Positions 44,787 to 52,050 of a DNA stretch of 64,000 nt are shown here, in pieces. The stretch covers positions 1 to 64,000 of the forward strand of contig JABSRN010000037.1 in assembly GCA_013214025.1 (NCBI GenBank). The letters are read 5' to 3'. The position numbers and the translations under genes were made by a program. This DNA comes from Polyangiaceae bacterium. GTDB lineage: Bacteria > Myxococcota_A > Polyangia > Polyangiales > Polyangiaceae. Positions within the stretch are counted from its first letter, which is position 1. Every line of letters begins with the position of its first letter. Under the pieces are notes generated by a model. The model saw only the letters and a program-made list of their open reading frames with translations, was not told where the DNA came from and did not search any database.

Positions 44787-46895
44787 GTGATCCTATTCAT
44801 TGGGTCTTTCCAGTTCGTGCCCTTGTTGGCCGTAATAGCGCTCAGCGTAGTGCTATCGCTCGGTGGCGCCTTTTGGACGCTGCTGGTGCAAGCGATCGGT
44901 AGCGAAGTCGGCGCCCAAGTGGCCCTGGGATCGCTCACTCTCATCGTGTTAGGCGGCATGGAAGTGTTCTTGCGCCGTCGGGAAGAAAGACCCGCCCGCG
45001 GCGTGCTCGATCTCGAAGCGCTGGTCGTACGCAGCGGCATTCCCGTGAGCGCCGTCGGCGGCAAAGCGTTGATGCTCGCGCGATTGCGGCGCAGTGGCAT
45101 CCCCGTCCCCGACGCCATCGTGATGACCTCCGAGCTATGCGCCGCCTTGATTGAGGCAAGACCGGATGGCGCGAGCGGAGTGTGGGCCGCCATCCCGTAC
45201 TGGGGAAAAAAGTGCTTCCACAATTTCTTGCACGGCAGTCGCGGGTCCAAGCTCATCATCCGTTCTTCCTTCGTGGAGAACTCATCAAAGCTCCGCCACC
45301 CGGGCATTTACCCCAGCGTTCGCAACGTCAACCCCAACGACCCCGGAGGCGTGCTCGACGCTATCTTCAAGGTATTACAGGGCCTGGAGGGCGAGTCTGC
45401 CAAGCTATATCGCAGACGCAACAAGATCCCCGGCGTCGCCGCTCGTGCCATTATCATCCAGCGGCAGATCGACGCCGACACCCTCGGCATCTCGGAATCT
45501 CGCGGCGAACAAGGTCGAGCCGATACCGTCACTATCGACTACACTCAGAAGCGATCCAGGACTCGTTCGGTTCGCTACGACATCGTCAATCGGCAAGCGC
45601 ACCCACTGGGCTCGGTGGATTCGCTCCCGGGACAGACTCACGCCTTCATGTGGCGGCTCGCAATGCTGAGCGTCGCCTTGGAAGTCGAGATGGAGGCGCC
45701 GGTTCAAATCGAGTTCGCCGTCTACGAGGGGCAGCTCTTCGTACTTCAGGTTCGACTGATTCCACCCACGGCACGCACCACCTGGCTCAGCTCGGCTCCC
45801 ATCGATATTGGGGCGCGCCGCAACCCGCGCCTGCTTCAGGATCTACGCGGTGGGATCCCGCTCATCCGTTCGGCCATCGGGAACGCGATGCGGGACGTAG
45901 GCGTCGTGGATGGGCCAACGGACGCGGAACTCAAGCTCATCGAAGACACGCCGTACATCGATGCACAAGTGTTGCGCCGCGTGCTCGCACGCAACACCAT
46001 CGACATTCTGCTGAATCTTCGCCAACGCCAAATGCTCCGCCTGATCCGACCGATCCGACGGCTCCCCCCAGTCCCGACCGACTCCGCCGATGTGGGCGAT
46101 TCTTGGAAGCGCCTGCGGGACTGGTATGCACATGCTTCGGGAGAGCAACTGCGTCTGCTGACCCGCCGCTGGCTGCTGGAAGACGCCGTGCAAATGGTCG
46201 GCGCCGAATCGGGAGCCGCCGCCGTCGAACAGCGAGTTCATCCCGTCCTGCGCTGGTTGCTGCGGGTCAGCCTCGCCCGCTGCGCAAAAGAAGTCCATCG
46301 AACGCACTCGCTGTTCGAGACCGCCGAGGAACAAGTACACAAGGTCGCTCCGATGATCCTGGCTCGGGGAGCCGAAGCGTGGGACGCCATGTTCATCGGG
46401 GACCGCTATTTACATACCAGCCTAGAGGAGCTCGATAATTGGTTGGAAGGCAAAGAGGATCGCAACGCTCTGGAAGCTAAGTGGAAGCTCTGGCGAGACG
46501 ATTTTCTCAAGCGCGAAGGCCAAGAGATCGAGGAGCGCATCCACGAACCCCGGCTCAAGTCCCCCAAAGAACCCAAGCCGAACAAGAGCTTGATATTTGG
46601 TGTGGCGGTCGTCCCAGGCCGAACCAAGGGCTCCGCCCAACGAGTCGGAGCCCCCAGCGCGCCACGTGCCGAGGACACCATCGTCATTCTCCCCGACGGG
46701 CGAGCGGACTTCGCCCCCTTCGTGTTTTTCGCCAACGGCATCATCTTGCAGGGTGGAGGCATACTCTCGCCGGTCGCCGCTCTCGCCCAAGAGCTGAAAG
46801 TGCCCACGGTTCTGTGCACTGAGATTCTCCCCACGGACTTGACTTCCGGACGAACTATTCAGCTCGATGGAGCGCTCGGCGTGGTGGCCCTCTAG
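44787..46895 (+). CDS. Membrane-anchored PEP-synthase-like protein lacking the catalytic His
   Basis: The 702-residue protein starts with two transmembrane helices (FVPLLAVIALSVVLSLGGAF, GAQVALGSLTLIVLGG). Residues 75-350 resemble the ATP-grasp PEP/pyruvate-binding domain (VGGKALMLARLRRSGIPVPD, IRSSFVENSS, MEAPVQIEFAVYEGQLFVLQ). A helical middle region follows. The C-terminus (about 600-702) resembles the swivelling PEP-utilising domain, but where the phospho-His motif (GGxxSHxA) belongs it reads GGGILSPVAALAQEL, Pro taking the place of His at about 662. The PEP-binding barrel is absent. It cannot act as a normal PEP synthase; a binding or regulatory role, or an ATP-grasp reaction alone, is possible. 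It is followed four bases later by the CapA-domain gene. Confidence 0.78.
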   Translation: MILFIGSFQFVPLLAVIALSVVLSLGGAFWTLLVQAIGSEVGAQVALGSLTLIVLGGMEVFLRRREERPARGVLDLEALVVRSGIPVSAVGGKALMLARLRRSGIPVPDAIVMTSELCAALIEARPDGASGVWAAIPYWGKKCFHNFLHGSRGSKLIIRSSFVENSSKLRHPGIYPSVRNVNPNDPGGVLDAIFKVLQGLEGESAKLYRRRNKIPGVAARAIIIQRQIDADTLGISESRGEQGRADTVTIDYTQKRSRTRSVRYDIVNRQAHPLGSVDSLPGQTHAFMWRLAMLSVALEVEMEAPVQIEFAVYEGQLFVLQVRLIPPTARTTWLSSAPIDIGARRNPRLLQDLRGGIPLIRSAIGNAMRDVGVVDGPTDAELKLIEDTPYIDAQVLRRVLARNTIDILLNLRQRQMLRLIRPIRRLPPVPTDSADVGDSWKRLRDWYAHASGEQLRLLTRRWLLEDAVQMVGAESGAAAVEQRVHPVLRWLLRVSLARCAKEVHRTHSLFETAEEQVHKVAPMILARGAEAWDAMFIGDRYLHTSLEELDNWLEGKEDRNALEAKWKLWRDDFLKREGQEIEERIHEPRLKSPKEPKPNKSLIFGVAVVPGRTKGSAQRVGAPSAPRAEDTIVILPDGRADFAPFVFFANGIILQGGGILSPVAALAQELKVPTVLCTEILPTDLTSGRTIQLDGALGVVAL

Positions 46896-46898
46896 CTC

Positions 46899-49133
46899 AT
46901 GTCTAGCATCAAGCTGACCCTAGTCTGCCTGCTCGTCACGCTACTCAGTGCGGGATTACTCTGGGCCGCCCGCGCTATCAGCTCCCGCTTCGACCCAGCG
47001 CAGTTTTCCGTCATCGGCTTCTTGATATGGGTGCTCGCAACCCTAGGCATCTCCGCCCCGCTGTTGGATCCCCACGCGGGTTGGGCCTTCCTTGCCACCT
47101 CAACGGTGCTGCTCTTCTCCCTACTGCTCCGAACCGCGGTCGATATTCGAGCCGGCATGACGCGACAACGCTTCGCGTTCTTGCAACTGTACGGCGGGAT
47201 CCTGGGCATACAATTCTTGTATATGAACTGGCGAGGCATGCTATTCGGAGCAACCGCCAGTGACGACTACGTAGCTTCACTTCAAGATTTCATCCGCCAT
47301 TTGATGGGCCCTTGGCTGGATGCCGGCGAGCCACTACTGGGCTTCTCTCGCGCTCCAGTGGAAGCGCAGCTGGCCGAGGTCAGTAGCCTGATCGCTCACA
47401 ACTTCTTGGTGTTGACCGCACTGATGAGTTTTCTCGTGGCGATGTATTGCGTGGCCTACCTAACGGACCGCGCGTTTCCGAAACCGGGCCTAACGCTCCT
47501 TCCACTCCCCACTCTCAGCACCATGGGCTTCTGCGCTCTGGCCGTCACGCTCTTCGGCCTCGGAAACGACCACCACGCCGTCGCGCTAGTAGTGGAGCTC
47601 GCGCTGATTGTCCTGTTGCCGTTCTTCTTGATTGAAGGGCTCACCCAGGTGCACCGTTGGACAAGCCGACTCCGTGTCCGCAAGGCCATCGTTATCATCA
47701 GCTTCCTACTGGTATTGTTTGATCCGCATTGGGGGGCGCTACTCATCCTCGCCAGTGTGGTCGTACAACTGGCTCAGCTCCGCGACCCCGAACTGCTGAG
47801 TACACGCTGGCGACCACACATCAGCACAGCGCTGTTTTCTGGGGGGGGGCTGGCCGTGATGCTATTCGCCCTGACCTACCCGGACGAAGCCCAAATCGCC
47901 CGGGTGTCGCCTTACCTCGGTATCCCCATCGATGTTTGCCGGAATCACCGCTGCTCTGTTCTTGACCTGCAACGCTGGCTCGGTTCCGATTTCGACGAAT
48001 GGAAAGCCGAGATCACGAAGCCCGCGCCCCCTGTTCCCGAAGAGAAAATGTTCGCCGACGAGAAGGCGGAAAAGTTCGTCGTCGTGGCCGGCGGCGACAT
48101 CAACCTTAGCGGCGCCGTATCCGAGTGGATCCTGGCGGACGACAATCACAACCCCTTCGCCAAGATCTCGCCTCTGCTCGAAGGCGCCCATCTCAAATTC
48201 GCCAATCTCGTTTCCCCCACCACTAGCGCGAAGGTTCGGCCCCCTCCGAAATGGGGCGTAAAACGCTTTGTGGCTCCCCCCCAATCGGCGCGCGCGATTG
48301 CCAATGGCGGACTGGATCTTGTCACTTTCGCCACCGAGCACTCGTGGGACGCGGGTCGCGAGGGATTTGATGACACCCTCAAACAGCTTGAGGACGCCGA
48401 TCTGTGGGTCGCCGGGGCCCACCGCGAAACTGGCAAAGCCAACGACCCTTTCACTCTGGAAGCGGAGGGTTGGAAAATCGCGCTCTATGCTGCCAACTCG
48501 GTCGAACTCATCGGCAAGAAGGACGCCAAGGAAAGCCGCGGCTTCATTGCTGACGCCGATCGCGTGCGACTGATCGCGGCCATCAAGAAAGCCCGCAAGG
48601 AATTCGACATCATCTTGGTCAGCTATCACGGCGGCGAGGAGTACGCTGACACACCGAGCGAGAAACATCAGAGCTTCGCCAACGTGATGATGCGCGCGGG
48701 CGCCGATGCCGTGTTCAGCCACCACAGTCACATCCCCATCGGATTTGGCTGGTACGAGAAACGGCCCATCTTCTACGGGCTCGGCAGTCTAGCGCGACAT
48801 GACGATTCCAAACACTCGTGGGCGAATCGCGGGTTCTTCGCTCGACTCACATTTTATGCGGCCGGCGCCAGAGATGCGGAGATCTGCCCGTATCTTTTGC
48901 AGGAAGAAGAACCCTCCGCCTTGTCCGGCGAGAACCGTCGTCAACAGGAAGGCATCTTTCGCAGAACGATGAAACGCCTGAGTTTCGACCTGGGGGGCAC
49001 CACTATCTCGGAGCCGGCTTTGTACTCGTGCATGCGACTTTGGCCACGAAACCGTCCCGATAGCGGTACCGAGCCCGGCGCTGGGCAAGACCTTCCGAAA
49101 ACTGCCGTAGAGCCAACGAGCCCGGCACCATGA
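46899..49133 (+). CDS. Polytopic membrane protein with CapA-type phosphoesterase domain
   Basis: The first half (1-360) of the 744-residue protein has about nine membrane spans, two of them right at the N-terminus. From about residue 390 the protein is a PGA_cap/CapA calcineurin-like domain: VVAGGDINLSG, HLKFANLVSP (usually NLE), ATEHSWDAG (usually NNHxxDxG), ILVSYHGGEEY and GADAVFSHHSH. CapA proteins act in poly-gamma-glutamate capsule assembly, and related metallophosphoesterases in other envelope tasks. Several metal-site positions differ from the consensus (NLV, TEH), so activity is uncertain. A charged helix and a Pro-rich end complete it. It lies four bases after the PEP-synthase-like gene, so the two are co-transcribed. 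I do not know this membrane-CapA fusion by name. Confidence 0.75.
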   Translation: MSSIKLTLVCLLVTLLSAGLLWAARAISSRFDPAQFSVIGFLIWVLATLGISAPLLDPHAGWAFLATSTVLLFSLLLRTAVDIRAGMTRQRFAFLQLYGGILGIQFLYMNWRGMLFGATASDDYVASLQDFIRHLMGPWLDAGEPLLGFSRAPVEAQLAEVSSLIAHNFLVLTALMSFLVAMYCVAYLTDRAFPKPGLTLLPLPTLSTMGFCALAVTLFGLGNDHHAVALVVELALIVLLPFFLIEGLTQVHRWTSRLRVRKAIVIISFLLVLFDPHWGALLILASVVVQLAQLRDPELLSTRWRPHISTALFSGGGLAVMLFALTYPDEAQIARVSPYLGIPIDVCRNHRCSVLDLQRWLGSDFDEWKAEITKPAPPVPEEKMFADEKAEKFVVVAGGDINLSGAVSEWILADDNHNPFAKISPLLEGAHLKFANLVSPTTSAKVRPPPKWGVKRFVAPPQSARAIANGGLDLVTFATEHSWDAGREGFDDTLKQLEDADLWVAGAHRETGKANDPFTLEAEGWKIALYAANSVELIGKKDAKESRGFIADADRVRLIAAIKKARKEFDIILVSYHGGEEYADTPSEKHQSFANVMMRAGADAVFSHHSHIPIGFGWYEKRPIFYGLGSLARHDDSKHSWANRGFFARLTFYAAGARDAEICPYLLQEEEPSALSGENRRQQEGIFRRTMKRLSFDLGGTTISEPALYSCMRLWPRNRPDSGTEPGAGQDLPKTAVEPTSPAP

Positions 49134-50262: not shown

Positions 50263-52050
50263 CTATTTCTCAGGGCTAGAGATGAAGAACTCGATGTAGC
50301 TCTTCCTGAGTCGGATCTTGTATGACGGGATCGCTGAGCGGAACTGAAAGCTAATGGTAGCGCCCTTGGCGTTGTTTTCCGTGCGAACCTTCACGATTCG
50401 GTCGTCGCGGCGCTCAATCGTTGATGGCGCCCCAGATACCTCCCGACCCGGCACCGTCACGGAGAACCCTCGAGAGGTGCGTTTTCCCACAAGGGCAGCG
50501 CCCGGGGCGCTGAGCTTCATTCGGTGCACGATGGGCAAATGCATCCGACCACGCCCCCAAGGCTGAACCTCTTCCGGCCGCAGCTTGGTGATTGCTCGCG
50601 GGGTGTCATCAAAAGCACGGTCCTCGCTCACATCGTCTACGGAGGTGCGCTCAACGGGCTGTGCTCCCAATTCCGCCGCTTGGGCTGTGGCCATTGGAGT
50701 GGGACCGAATAGCGGAACGTTAGCAACGATATCGCCCGATTCCGGGGCTTCAGGCTCGACTTCGACCTCGACGGCTTCCGCTGGTGCGGTCGCCGCGACG
50801 GTCGGCTGCGTCTCCGTCTCGACCGCAGCGGCACTCGCCAAGGGGCTTTCGCCCACCTCTGTTTCGCCACCGACCAGGGTGTAGGAGCCCACCGCCAGCA
50901 CCGTGATCGCCGCCGCAATCATGCCCACGCGCGCTCGTGACGCTATCCGGGCTGGAGCCGACGGCTCAGGAGCAGCGGATCGCACCGGCTGTCGCGCGGA
51001 ACGAAATCGTTGCGCGGAGGTCGACAACACGCCTGACGGCGGAGGCGCGGTCGTCCGCCGCGGCGGCACCTTGGTCTCCTCACGTTTTGCCCGCAGCTTA
51101 CTAACGGTCGTTCCGGCGCTATTGGCCAGAGCGCCCCCGCCGCTCCAGGCGGCACTTCCCAGCTTTGCCAAGCCGGCGCCAGCTACCTTGGCCATCGACG
51201 CGGCGTTGCCCGCAAGAATATCGAGCCGCTCGCGCACATGGCCGCCACTCTCGATTTCCTCCTTGTCGTCGTAGTATTCGTCTGCCGCGAGGGGCTCGGG
51301 ATCCAGAGACGCGCCGGGGGGAATTGGACTGTGCTCAGGATCGAGCCTTTGAGCGTAGCTGTCTCTGGCATTGACCGCCGCGTCGATTACGCTCGGCTGA
51401 GGGGTCACCTCGGCGCCGTCGTAGCGCAAGCACACAACCAACTGCGGAATTTGGGTCTGGGGGTCCACGGCCACCGACACAGAATCGATTTCTGCATCGC
51501 GCCGGCGTCCATCGTCAACGTTCTCAAGCTCCAGGGAACGCCCCACGCGGAGGAACTCAAGATTCGACCCCACCTGGACTCGATGCTCACTGCCCTCTCT
51601 TACCCGGGCCTTCATCGGTGCGCCCAGGCCCTCGATATGCAGCTTAACATCCGCTCCGACTTGAGCGATCAGTTCGACCGCTTCGGAGACCGGCGGGGGT
51701 GGAACTGACTCGTCCATCGGGCGAGAAACACCGCACATTTCCTTGAGCACCTCGACGCTATTGCTGTCTAGGGCGGTAAAACGGATACCAAAGGCGCTAT
51801 CCTCGCCCGCCTCGACACGCCAGGCGACCTCTCCCTCAACGATGACCTCGCGGCCATCGCTCTCAAAGCGGCACACCAGCGGGGCGTGTAGCTCCGGCAA
51901 GTACGTGGTGCGAACGTGCATTCCCCGGCCACTCACCTCGACGCTCCGGGCTTCAAACGCCGGTACTTCGTGATCTCGGCCGCAAATTTCGACCAAGGTT
52001 GCTACCGCAACACGCTCCACATTTGCCGCCCGACGATCCTCATGTTCCAT
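50263..52050 (-). CDS. PilZ-domain membrane protein with AMIN-like C-terminus
   Basis: The 595-residue protein has an N-terminal PilZ domain (about 5-108): an early DRRAANVERVAVA, then FEARSVEVSGRGMHVRTTYL and DSAFGIRFTAL. PilZ domains bind cyclic di-GMP through an RxxxR and D/NxSxxG pair; here DRRAANVER and VEVSGRG are close to that pattern but not exact. A second beta region (130-215) follows, then a linker, a TM helix (RVGMIAAAITVLAVGSYTLV, about 372-392), a Pro/Glu-rich extracytoplasmic spacer, and a C-terminal beta-sheet domain (ATISFQFRSAIPSYKIRLRK) that resembles AMIN/secretin-associated domains. It may link c-di-GMP to an envelope process. It is divergent from the FHA gene. Confidence 0.78.
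   Translation of the reverse strand: MEHEDRRAANVERVAVATLVEICGRDHEVPAFEARSVEVSGRGMHVRTTYLPELHAPLVCRFESDGREVIVEGEVAWRVEAGEDSAFGIRFTALDSNSVEVLKEMCGVSRPMDESVPPPPVSEAVELIAQVGADVKLHIEGLGAPMKARVREGSEHRVQVGSNLEFLRVGRSLELENVDDGRRRDAEIDSVSVAVDPQTQIPQLVVCLRYDGAEVTPQPSVIDAAVNARDSYAQRLDPEHSPIPPGASLDPEPLAADEYYDDKEEIESGGHVRERLDILAGNAASMAKVAGAGLAKLGSAAWSGGGALANSAGTTVSKLRAKREETKVPPRRTTAPPPSGVLSTSAQRFRSARQPVRSAAPEPSAPARIASRARVGMIAAAITVLAVGSYTLVGGETEVGESPLASAAAVETETQPTVAATAPAEAVEVEVEPEAPESGDIVANVPLFGPTPMATAQAAELGAQPVERTSVDDVSEDRAFDDTPRAITKLRPEEVQPWGRGRMHLPIVHRMKLSAPGAALVGKRTSRGFSVTVPGREVSGAPSTIERRDDRIVKVRTENNAKGATISFQFRSAIPSYKIRLRKSYIEFFISSPEK

Follow-up and report, generated by a model that had tools for sequence, protein, structure and literature searches.

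A membrane-anchored dikinase relative with proline at the phospho-histidine position and its adjacent membrane partner in Polyangiaceae

The gene pair and its domains

The window, the whole stretch of 64,000 nucleotides analysed here, carries on its plus strand a gene for a membrane-anchored ATP-grasp/swivel protein of 702 amino acids, a pseudo-dikinase (44787..46895). Its GTG start is backed by orthologs beginning at the same residue. Pfam assigns PPDK_N (PF01326, 1.3e-14) and PEP-utilizers (PF00391, 1.5e-07) to the window protein, both above the curated cut-offs, and these matches confirm the ATP-grasp-like and swivel-like halves read from the sequence in a preliminary description. With both domains present, the protein belongs by common descent to the dikinase superfamily of PEP synthase, pyruvate phosphate dikinase (PPDK) and rifampin phosphotransferase (RPH). 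Pfam finds no PEP/pyruvate barrel (PF02896) in it. The lack of this barrel had been considered unusual; this did not hold, as RPH-type proteins, the best Foldseek matches, are normally without it.

Two predicted membrane segments lie at the N-terminus, at residues 1-19 (44787..44843, plus strand) and 44-62 (44916..44972, plus strand), so that hydropathy agrees with the two helices proposed earlier. The second is followed by a positively charged stretch, which suggests a cytoplasmic location of both large domains. The ATP-grasp domain, delimited by Pfam and alignment, covers about residues 85-330 (45039..45776, plus strand). A helical middle region without a family match in Pfam, seen in the model at about residues 335-599 (45789..46583, plus strand), sits where RPH has its drug-binding domain. 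The swivel or phospho-carrier domain occupies residues 600-702 (46584..46892, plus strand). This order of ATP-grasp domain, middle region and C-terminal swivel is that of RPH, the best Foldseek match (E 2.7e-13). The swivel, assigned by Pfam and by its fold, was superposed as a model (600-702) on RPH 5fbu (Z 16.2, rmsd 2.2, 105 residues) and on the pyruvate kinase C-terminal domain 2e28 (Z 15.4, rmsd 2.0, 103 residues). The structural argument is restricted to this match because the whole-protein model, built on a three-sequence alignment, is weak (mean pLDDT 55.7). Comparison of the middle region with the rifampin-binding domain of RPH suffers from low model confidence and poor alignment there. 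A promoter scan gave nothing relevant.

Three bases past the stop codon begins the partner gene (46899..49133, plus strand), encoding a polytopic membrane protein of 744 amino acids. Its conserved polytopic domain comprises about residues 1-343 (46899..47927, plus strand; hydropathy) and has no Pfam match. A CapA/PGA_cap domain follows at residues 395-631 (48081..48791, plus strand; Pfam E 1.8e-50). The C-terminal domain is probably located outside the cytoplasm, as placed by the last helix of the partner. An AlphaFold2 model of the partner, from a three-sequence alignment, reached a mean pLDDT of 40.3, too low to be of use. The CapA domain resembles CapA/PGA_cap proteins and the lasso-peptide epimerase MslH (8gq9), but unlike these it is fused to a polytopic domain. 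Some residues typical of CapA motifs appear to be missing from it, with ATEH where MslH has ANNH and FANLV where NLE is expected, so that its metal site may be incomplete. No Pfam match to CapB or CapC was found among the six window genes scanned, and a search for CapA in myxobacteria yielded nothing of use in the open-licence PMC literature. Also near the pair, on the minus strand at 50263-52050, lies a gene for a 595-aa protein carrying a PilZ domain at its N-terminus and a long middle part of seemingly low complexity.

The genome of the window is 97% complete. It holds one other PPDK_N (PF01326) match, a marginal one at the cut-off on contig C74, and a single PF02896 match on contig C52, which differs from the contigs with PF01326. 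The C74 protein (L001 1-2061, minus strand) shows no match to PEP-utilizers over the part retrieved and is another diverged relative. Since only these two matches accompany the window gene, no complete PEP synthase or PPDK is seen in this genome by PF01326 and PF02896.

The histidine position and the ATP site

The swivelling phospho-histidine domain is a textbook moving part. In the alignment, the column of the phospho-carrier histidine is occupied in the window protein by Pro662 (codon CCG, 46770..46772, plus strand), the residue that starts a helix in the model. The preliminary description had thus correctly noted the exchange. The phospho-carrier histidine of the dikinase mechanism, located in the GG-rich loop and used for autophosphorylation in VadK-type kinases, is thus absent.

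An alignment of homologues, proposed earlier for deciding whether the proline is fixed, gave proline in all five full-length Polyangiaceae orthologs (window, G006, G012, G068 and G069), which represent three genera and are called the Pro clade below. The other four proteins are 34-36% identical to the window protein, G006 at 36%. They share the two N-terminal membrane segments predicted from hydropathy, as do G273 and G472, two membrane-anchored cousins elsewhere in the phylum. Both cousins keep the histidine. It is also kept in the fragment G394, the frame of which is interrupted near a contig end with the ATP-grasp half off the contig, and in all generic PEP-synthase relatives in hand. Across all relatives in hand, 24 distinct sequence contexts comprise 20 with histidine and four with proline; the latter stand for the five orthologs, with G012 and G069 forming one row, and proteins with a swivel domain cut off by the end of the retrieved sequence are left out of the count. 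A tree of ten proteins places the proline rows on one side of a single branch (support 100/99), while another branch splits off the two histidine-bearing anchored proteins (100/100). Because one branch separates the proline rows, a single histidine-to-proline change is the simplest account. Retention of histidine by most homologues had been named as the sign of a recent loss of function. Most do retain it, namely the distant anchored cousins and the generic relatives (20/24), but the loss is clade-wide, maps to one tree branch and is accompanied by purifying selection, and hence is not recent.

The canonical ATP-site residues were mapped by sequence alone because of the weak whole-protein model; a structure prediction of the site, suggested earlier, was of little use at this confidence, whereas alignment revealed the residues to be retained. 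K93, R159, E309, Q321 and R323 align with RPH K22, R117, E297, Q309 and R311. The available part of PMC4844700 names the first three RPH residues, while Q309 and R311 were counted from the alignment. The match of K93 to K22 runs via PEP synthase alignments and a shared GGK motif. The window protein and G006 retain all five residues. In three orthologs, those of the genus g13, the Lys of the ATP site is replaced by Glu, the Glu by Gln or His and the Gln by Ser. In RPH, K22A abolishes activity and substitution of the Glu does not, according to excerpts of the same source (PMC4844700).

Of all domains in the Pro clade, the swivel without histidine is the best conserved. The window protein is 43-48% identical to its Pro-clade relatives in the swivel, 32-38% in the ATP-grasp domain and 30-33% in the middle region; therefore, the part without its catalytic residue is held most tightly. 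Within genus g13, the whole gene has a dN/dS of 0.15-0.24, its ATP-grasp domain one of 0.12-0.19 and its swivel one of 0.13-0.19. These values come from three genomes of 75-87% protein identity in the genus without the ATP residues and, measured in g13 only, say nothing direct on the window lineage. Seven complete open frames without an internal stop are present in seven genomes. The protein is a maintained pseudoenzyme, and pseudogene decay was ruled out by the intact frames together with dN/dS.

Distribution and composition of the pair

Full-length orthologs occur in five of 108 Polyangiaceae genomes, the members of the Pro clade. One further membrane-anchored relative was found in the class (G273; 317 genomes) and another in the phylum sample (G472; 377 genomes). 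The class search with the ATP-grasp protein matched 60 of 317 genomes, 54 of which were counted as generic relatives, their match being weaker and over one part only. Class searches scored three or four candidates per genome, so that misses are possible. Scanning of genome contigs with a single sequence found nothing; scanning with an alignment returned two already known orthologs and one histidine-bearing generic relative.

The partner is adjacent in all seven complete loci. In G472 the pair has the same order as in the window, with overlapping ends; in G273 the order is flipped and the polytopic gene lies directly upstream. Within the class, full-length-type partner matches of profile A6 occur in exactly the same six of 317 genomes as the ATP-grasp protein, an agreement with a chance of 4.8e-8 when counted by genus. 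Profile A6 contained the partners of five of these six genomes, only the window partner standing outside (E 4.2e-38), and the co-occurrence therefore shows an absence of orphan partners rather than an independent discovery. Altogether the profile matched eight genomes of 317; two genomes and two further matches contributed FGE-sulfatase proteins only. The partner link of G273 is weaker than the others and is suggested by alignment A6, the motif CExxGxRxC and gene position. Its upstream gene scored 7.6e-146 in the class search with a profile that included its own sequence and is thus not independent, and the profile comparison with partner alignment A2 was weak (probability 8.5, E 0.0039).

The CapA domain is present in the window copy only, one of the seven complete loci; at the C-terminus of the other six partners lies a Cys-rich domain. 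Capsule polymer machinery was therefore ruled out as the conserved function. The other four partners of the Pro clade share the polytopic domain and carry behind it a short Cys-rich domain in which the motif CExxGKRLCTSDEW occurs. Three of these four end in CC in the alignment; the fourth (L022) was aligned with a hand-chosen end and its C-terminus is missing. In G273 and G472, the partners have the motif CExxGxRxC and, close to the C-terminus, a CC. Pfam gives no direct FGE call for the Cys-rich domain of the Pro-clade partners, and the additional class matches of the partner profile are proteins that Pfam names FGE-sulfatase; because of these matches, the domain of the four Polyangiaceae partners looks like a shortened FGE-type domain. 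The partner evolves fast, with dN/dS up to 0.52. The pairing with a CapA-domain membrane protein, as first described, thus stands for the pair but not for CapA: the conserved part is the polytopic domain. Likewise, conservation of the neighbourhood with the CapA gene applies to partner adjacency, six of the seven partners being without CapA.

A shared neighbourhood beyond the pair was rejected, since the window, G006 and g13 have different flanks. A cysteine-synthase-like gene is located near the pair in g13 (L022 and L023, downstream) and in G472 (L070:10371-13121, on the other side). The ORFs listed for 38-54 kb of the window do not include it, and its recurrence was put down to coincidence. 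Two genomes with the pair also encode an FGE-sulfatase joined to a LysM domain (L081:1357-2421 in G012, L082:928-1893 in G069).

Related systems and possible roles

The combination of ATP-grasp and swivel in the absence of a PEP barrel is well established from RPH, VadK and HpeHI, in all of which the swivel histidine is described as essential (PMC4844700, PMC13400623 and PMC12167813, each cited here from excerpts). RPH from Listeria (PDB 5fbs/5hv1) has the same domain order, no PEP barrel and the five ATP-site residues in common with the window protein (PMC4844700). It differs in the catalytic His825, a rifampin-binding middle domain and the absence of membrane helices, where the window protein has proline, a helical middle without a recognised family and two membrane helices. 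VadK (Rv1127c), a regulatory autokinase repurposed from central metabolism, likewise combines ATP-grasp and swivel without the barrel (PMC13400623). Unlike the window protein, it keeps and uses its histidine H422, and H422A does not autophosphorylate; the available part of the paper describes no membrane anchor (PMC13400623). The two-component dikinase HpeHI (HpeI PDB 9goj) places an RPH-type ATP-grasp and swivel outside PEP metabolism (PMC12167813). Unlike the window protein, it is split on two proteins with an essential His581, and HpeH H581Q is inactive, as excerpts of that paper report. PEP synthase and PPDK share the ATP-grasp and swivel domains (PF01326, PF00391) with the window protein, which departs from them in having no PEP barrel, no histidine, a C-terminal instead of a central swivel and a membrane anchor. 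No description of a membrane-anchored form without the histidine and with a fixed partner, i.e. of a swivel pseudoenzyme, was found in the open-licence PMC literature.

The best explanation, to which we give about an even chance, is a pseudo-dikinase that acts from the cytoplasm as a regulatory or scaffolding subunit for its membrane partner. The gene would then encode the cytoplasmic half of a two-protein inner-membrane unit. Its presumed ancestor is a dikinase of the RPH/PEP-synthase type, in which the ATP-grasp domain phosphorylates the histidine on the mobile swivel. An anchored form with histidine is still found in other Myxococcota, and the exchange to proline in the Polyangiaceae lineage brought a predicted loss of the phospho-histidine relay. 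By analogy with HpeH H581Q and VadK H422A, as given in the available parts of PMC12167813 and PMC13400623, classical phosphate transfer should be impossible without the histidine. The swivel of the pseudoenzyme may be a module for docking to the polytopic partner or for regulating it. The C-terminal domain of this partner, CapA-like in the window and small and Cys-rich in the relatives, is predicted outside the cytoplasm. That the protein has kept a role is supported by purifying selection and by the strict pairing. Loss of the ATP site in one genus fits a structural role. In the window protein and G006, ATP binding may still be possible because the site is intact, and by setting the swivel position it could send a signal to the partner or gate it. 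A fuller version of this regulatory role, with the membrane-bound pseudo-dikinase as an ATP-responsive transducer in which ATP closes the ATP-grasp domain onto the histidine-less swivel and the swivel position controls a partner with an exchangeable outward domain (CapA-like or FGE-sulfatase-like), is doubtful.

The main rival is a histidine-free, ATP-dependent reaction in the window protein and G006. A new enzyme of this kind would transfer phosphate directly to a substrate, or form an acyl-phosphate for ligation as other ATP-grasp enzymes do; the swivel or the helical middle would hold this substrate, and the partner would supply or export it. The retention of K93, R159, E309, Q321 and R323 in two proteins just 36% identical speaks for it, as does a CapA domain, of a kind named for capsule polymer synthesis, on the window partner. 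However, the g13 orthologs have lost the Lys, Glu and Gln and are still under purifying selection beside the same partner, and in the remaining six complete loci the partner has no CapA domain; such an enzyme is rather unlikely. A VadK-like regulator with another swivel residue as the new phosphate acceptor, e.g. S661 or D637, is less probable again. Both residues are invariant in the five Pro-clade proteins, and VadK itself is a precedent for a regulatory autokinase of ATP-grasp and swivel without the barrel (PMC13400623, in the part available). D637 is, however, present in both histidine-bearing cousins and S661 in one, so neither arose with the proline as a replacement. Moreover, three orthologs are without the ATP-site Lys, the loss of which abolishes RPH activity (PMC4844700, from excerpts). 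Neutral decay of the gene pair, with the histidine loss as one of its steps and a protein without function as its result, could draw on the stepwise differences of key residues over the tree (histidine lost in all five, ATP residues in g13 only), the sparse distribution in 5 of 108 family genomes and the fast evolution of the partner (dN/dS up to 0.52). Against seven complete frames without a stop, dN/dS of 0.15-0.24 and the strict pairing, this explanation is very improbable.

The Pro clade, with its best-conserved and yet histidine-less swivel, offers a natural case in which the motion of the domain is uncoupled from phosphate transfer. The pair forms a conserved membrane unit of two genes in Myxococcota, and no description of it was found in the open-licence PMC literature. 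We know of no earlier case in which the swivelling-domain machine signals without transferring phosphate; the ATP-responsive transducer, if true, would be the first.
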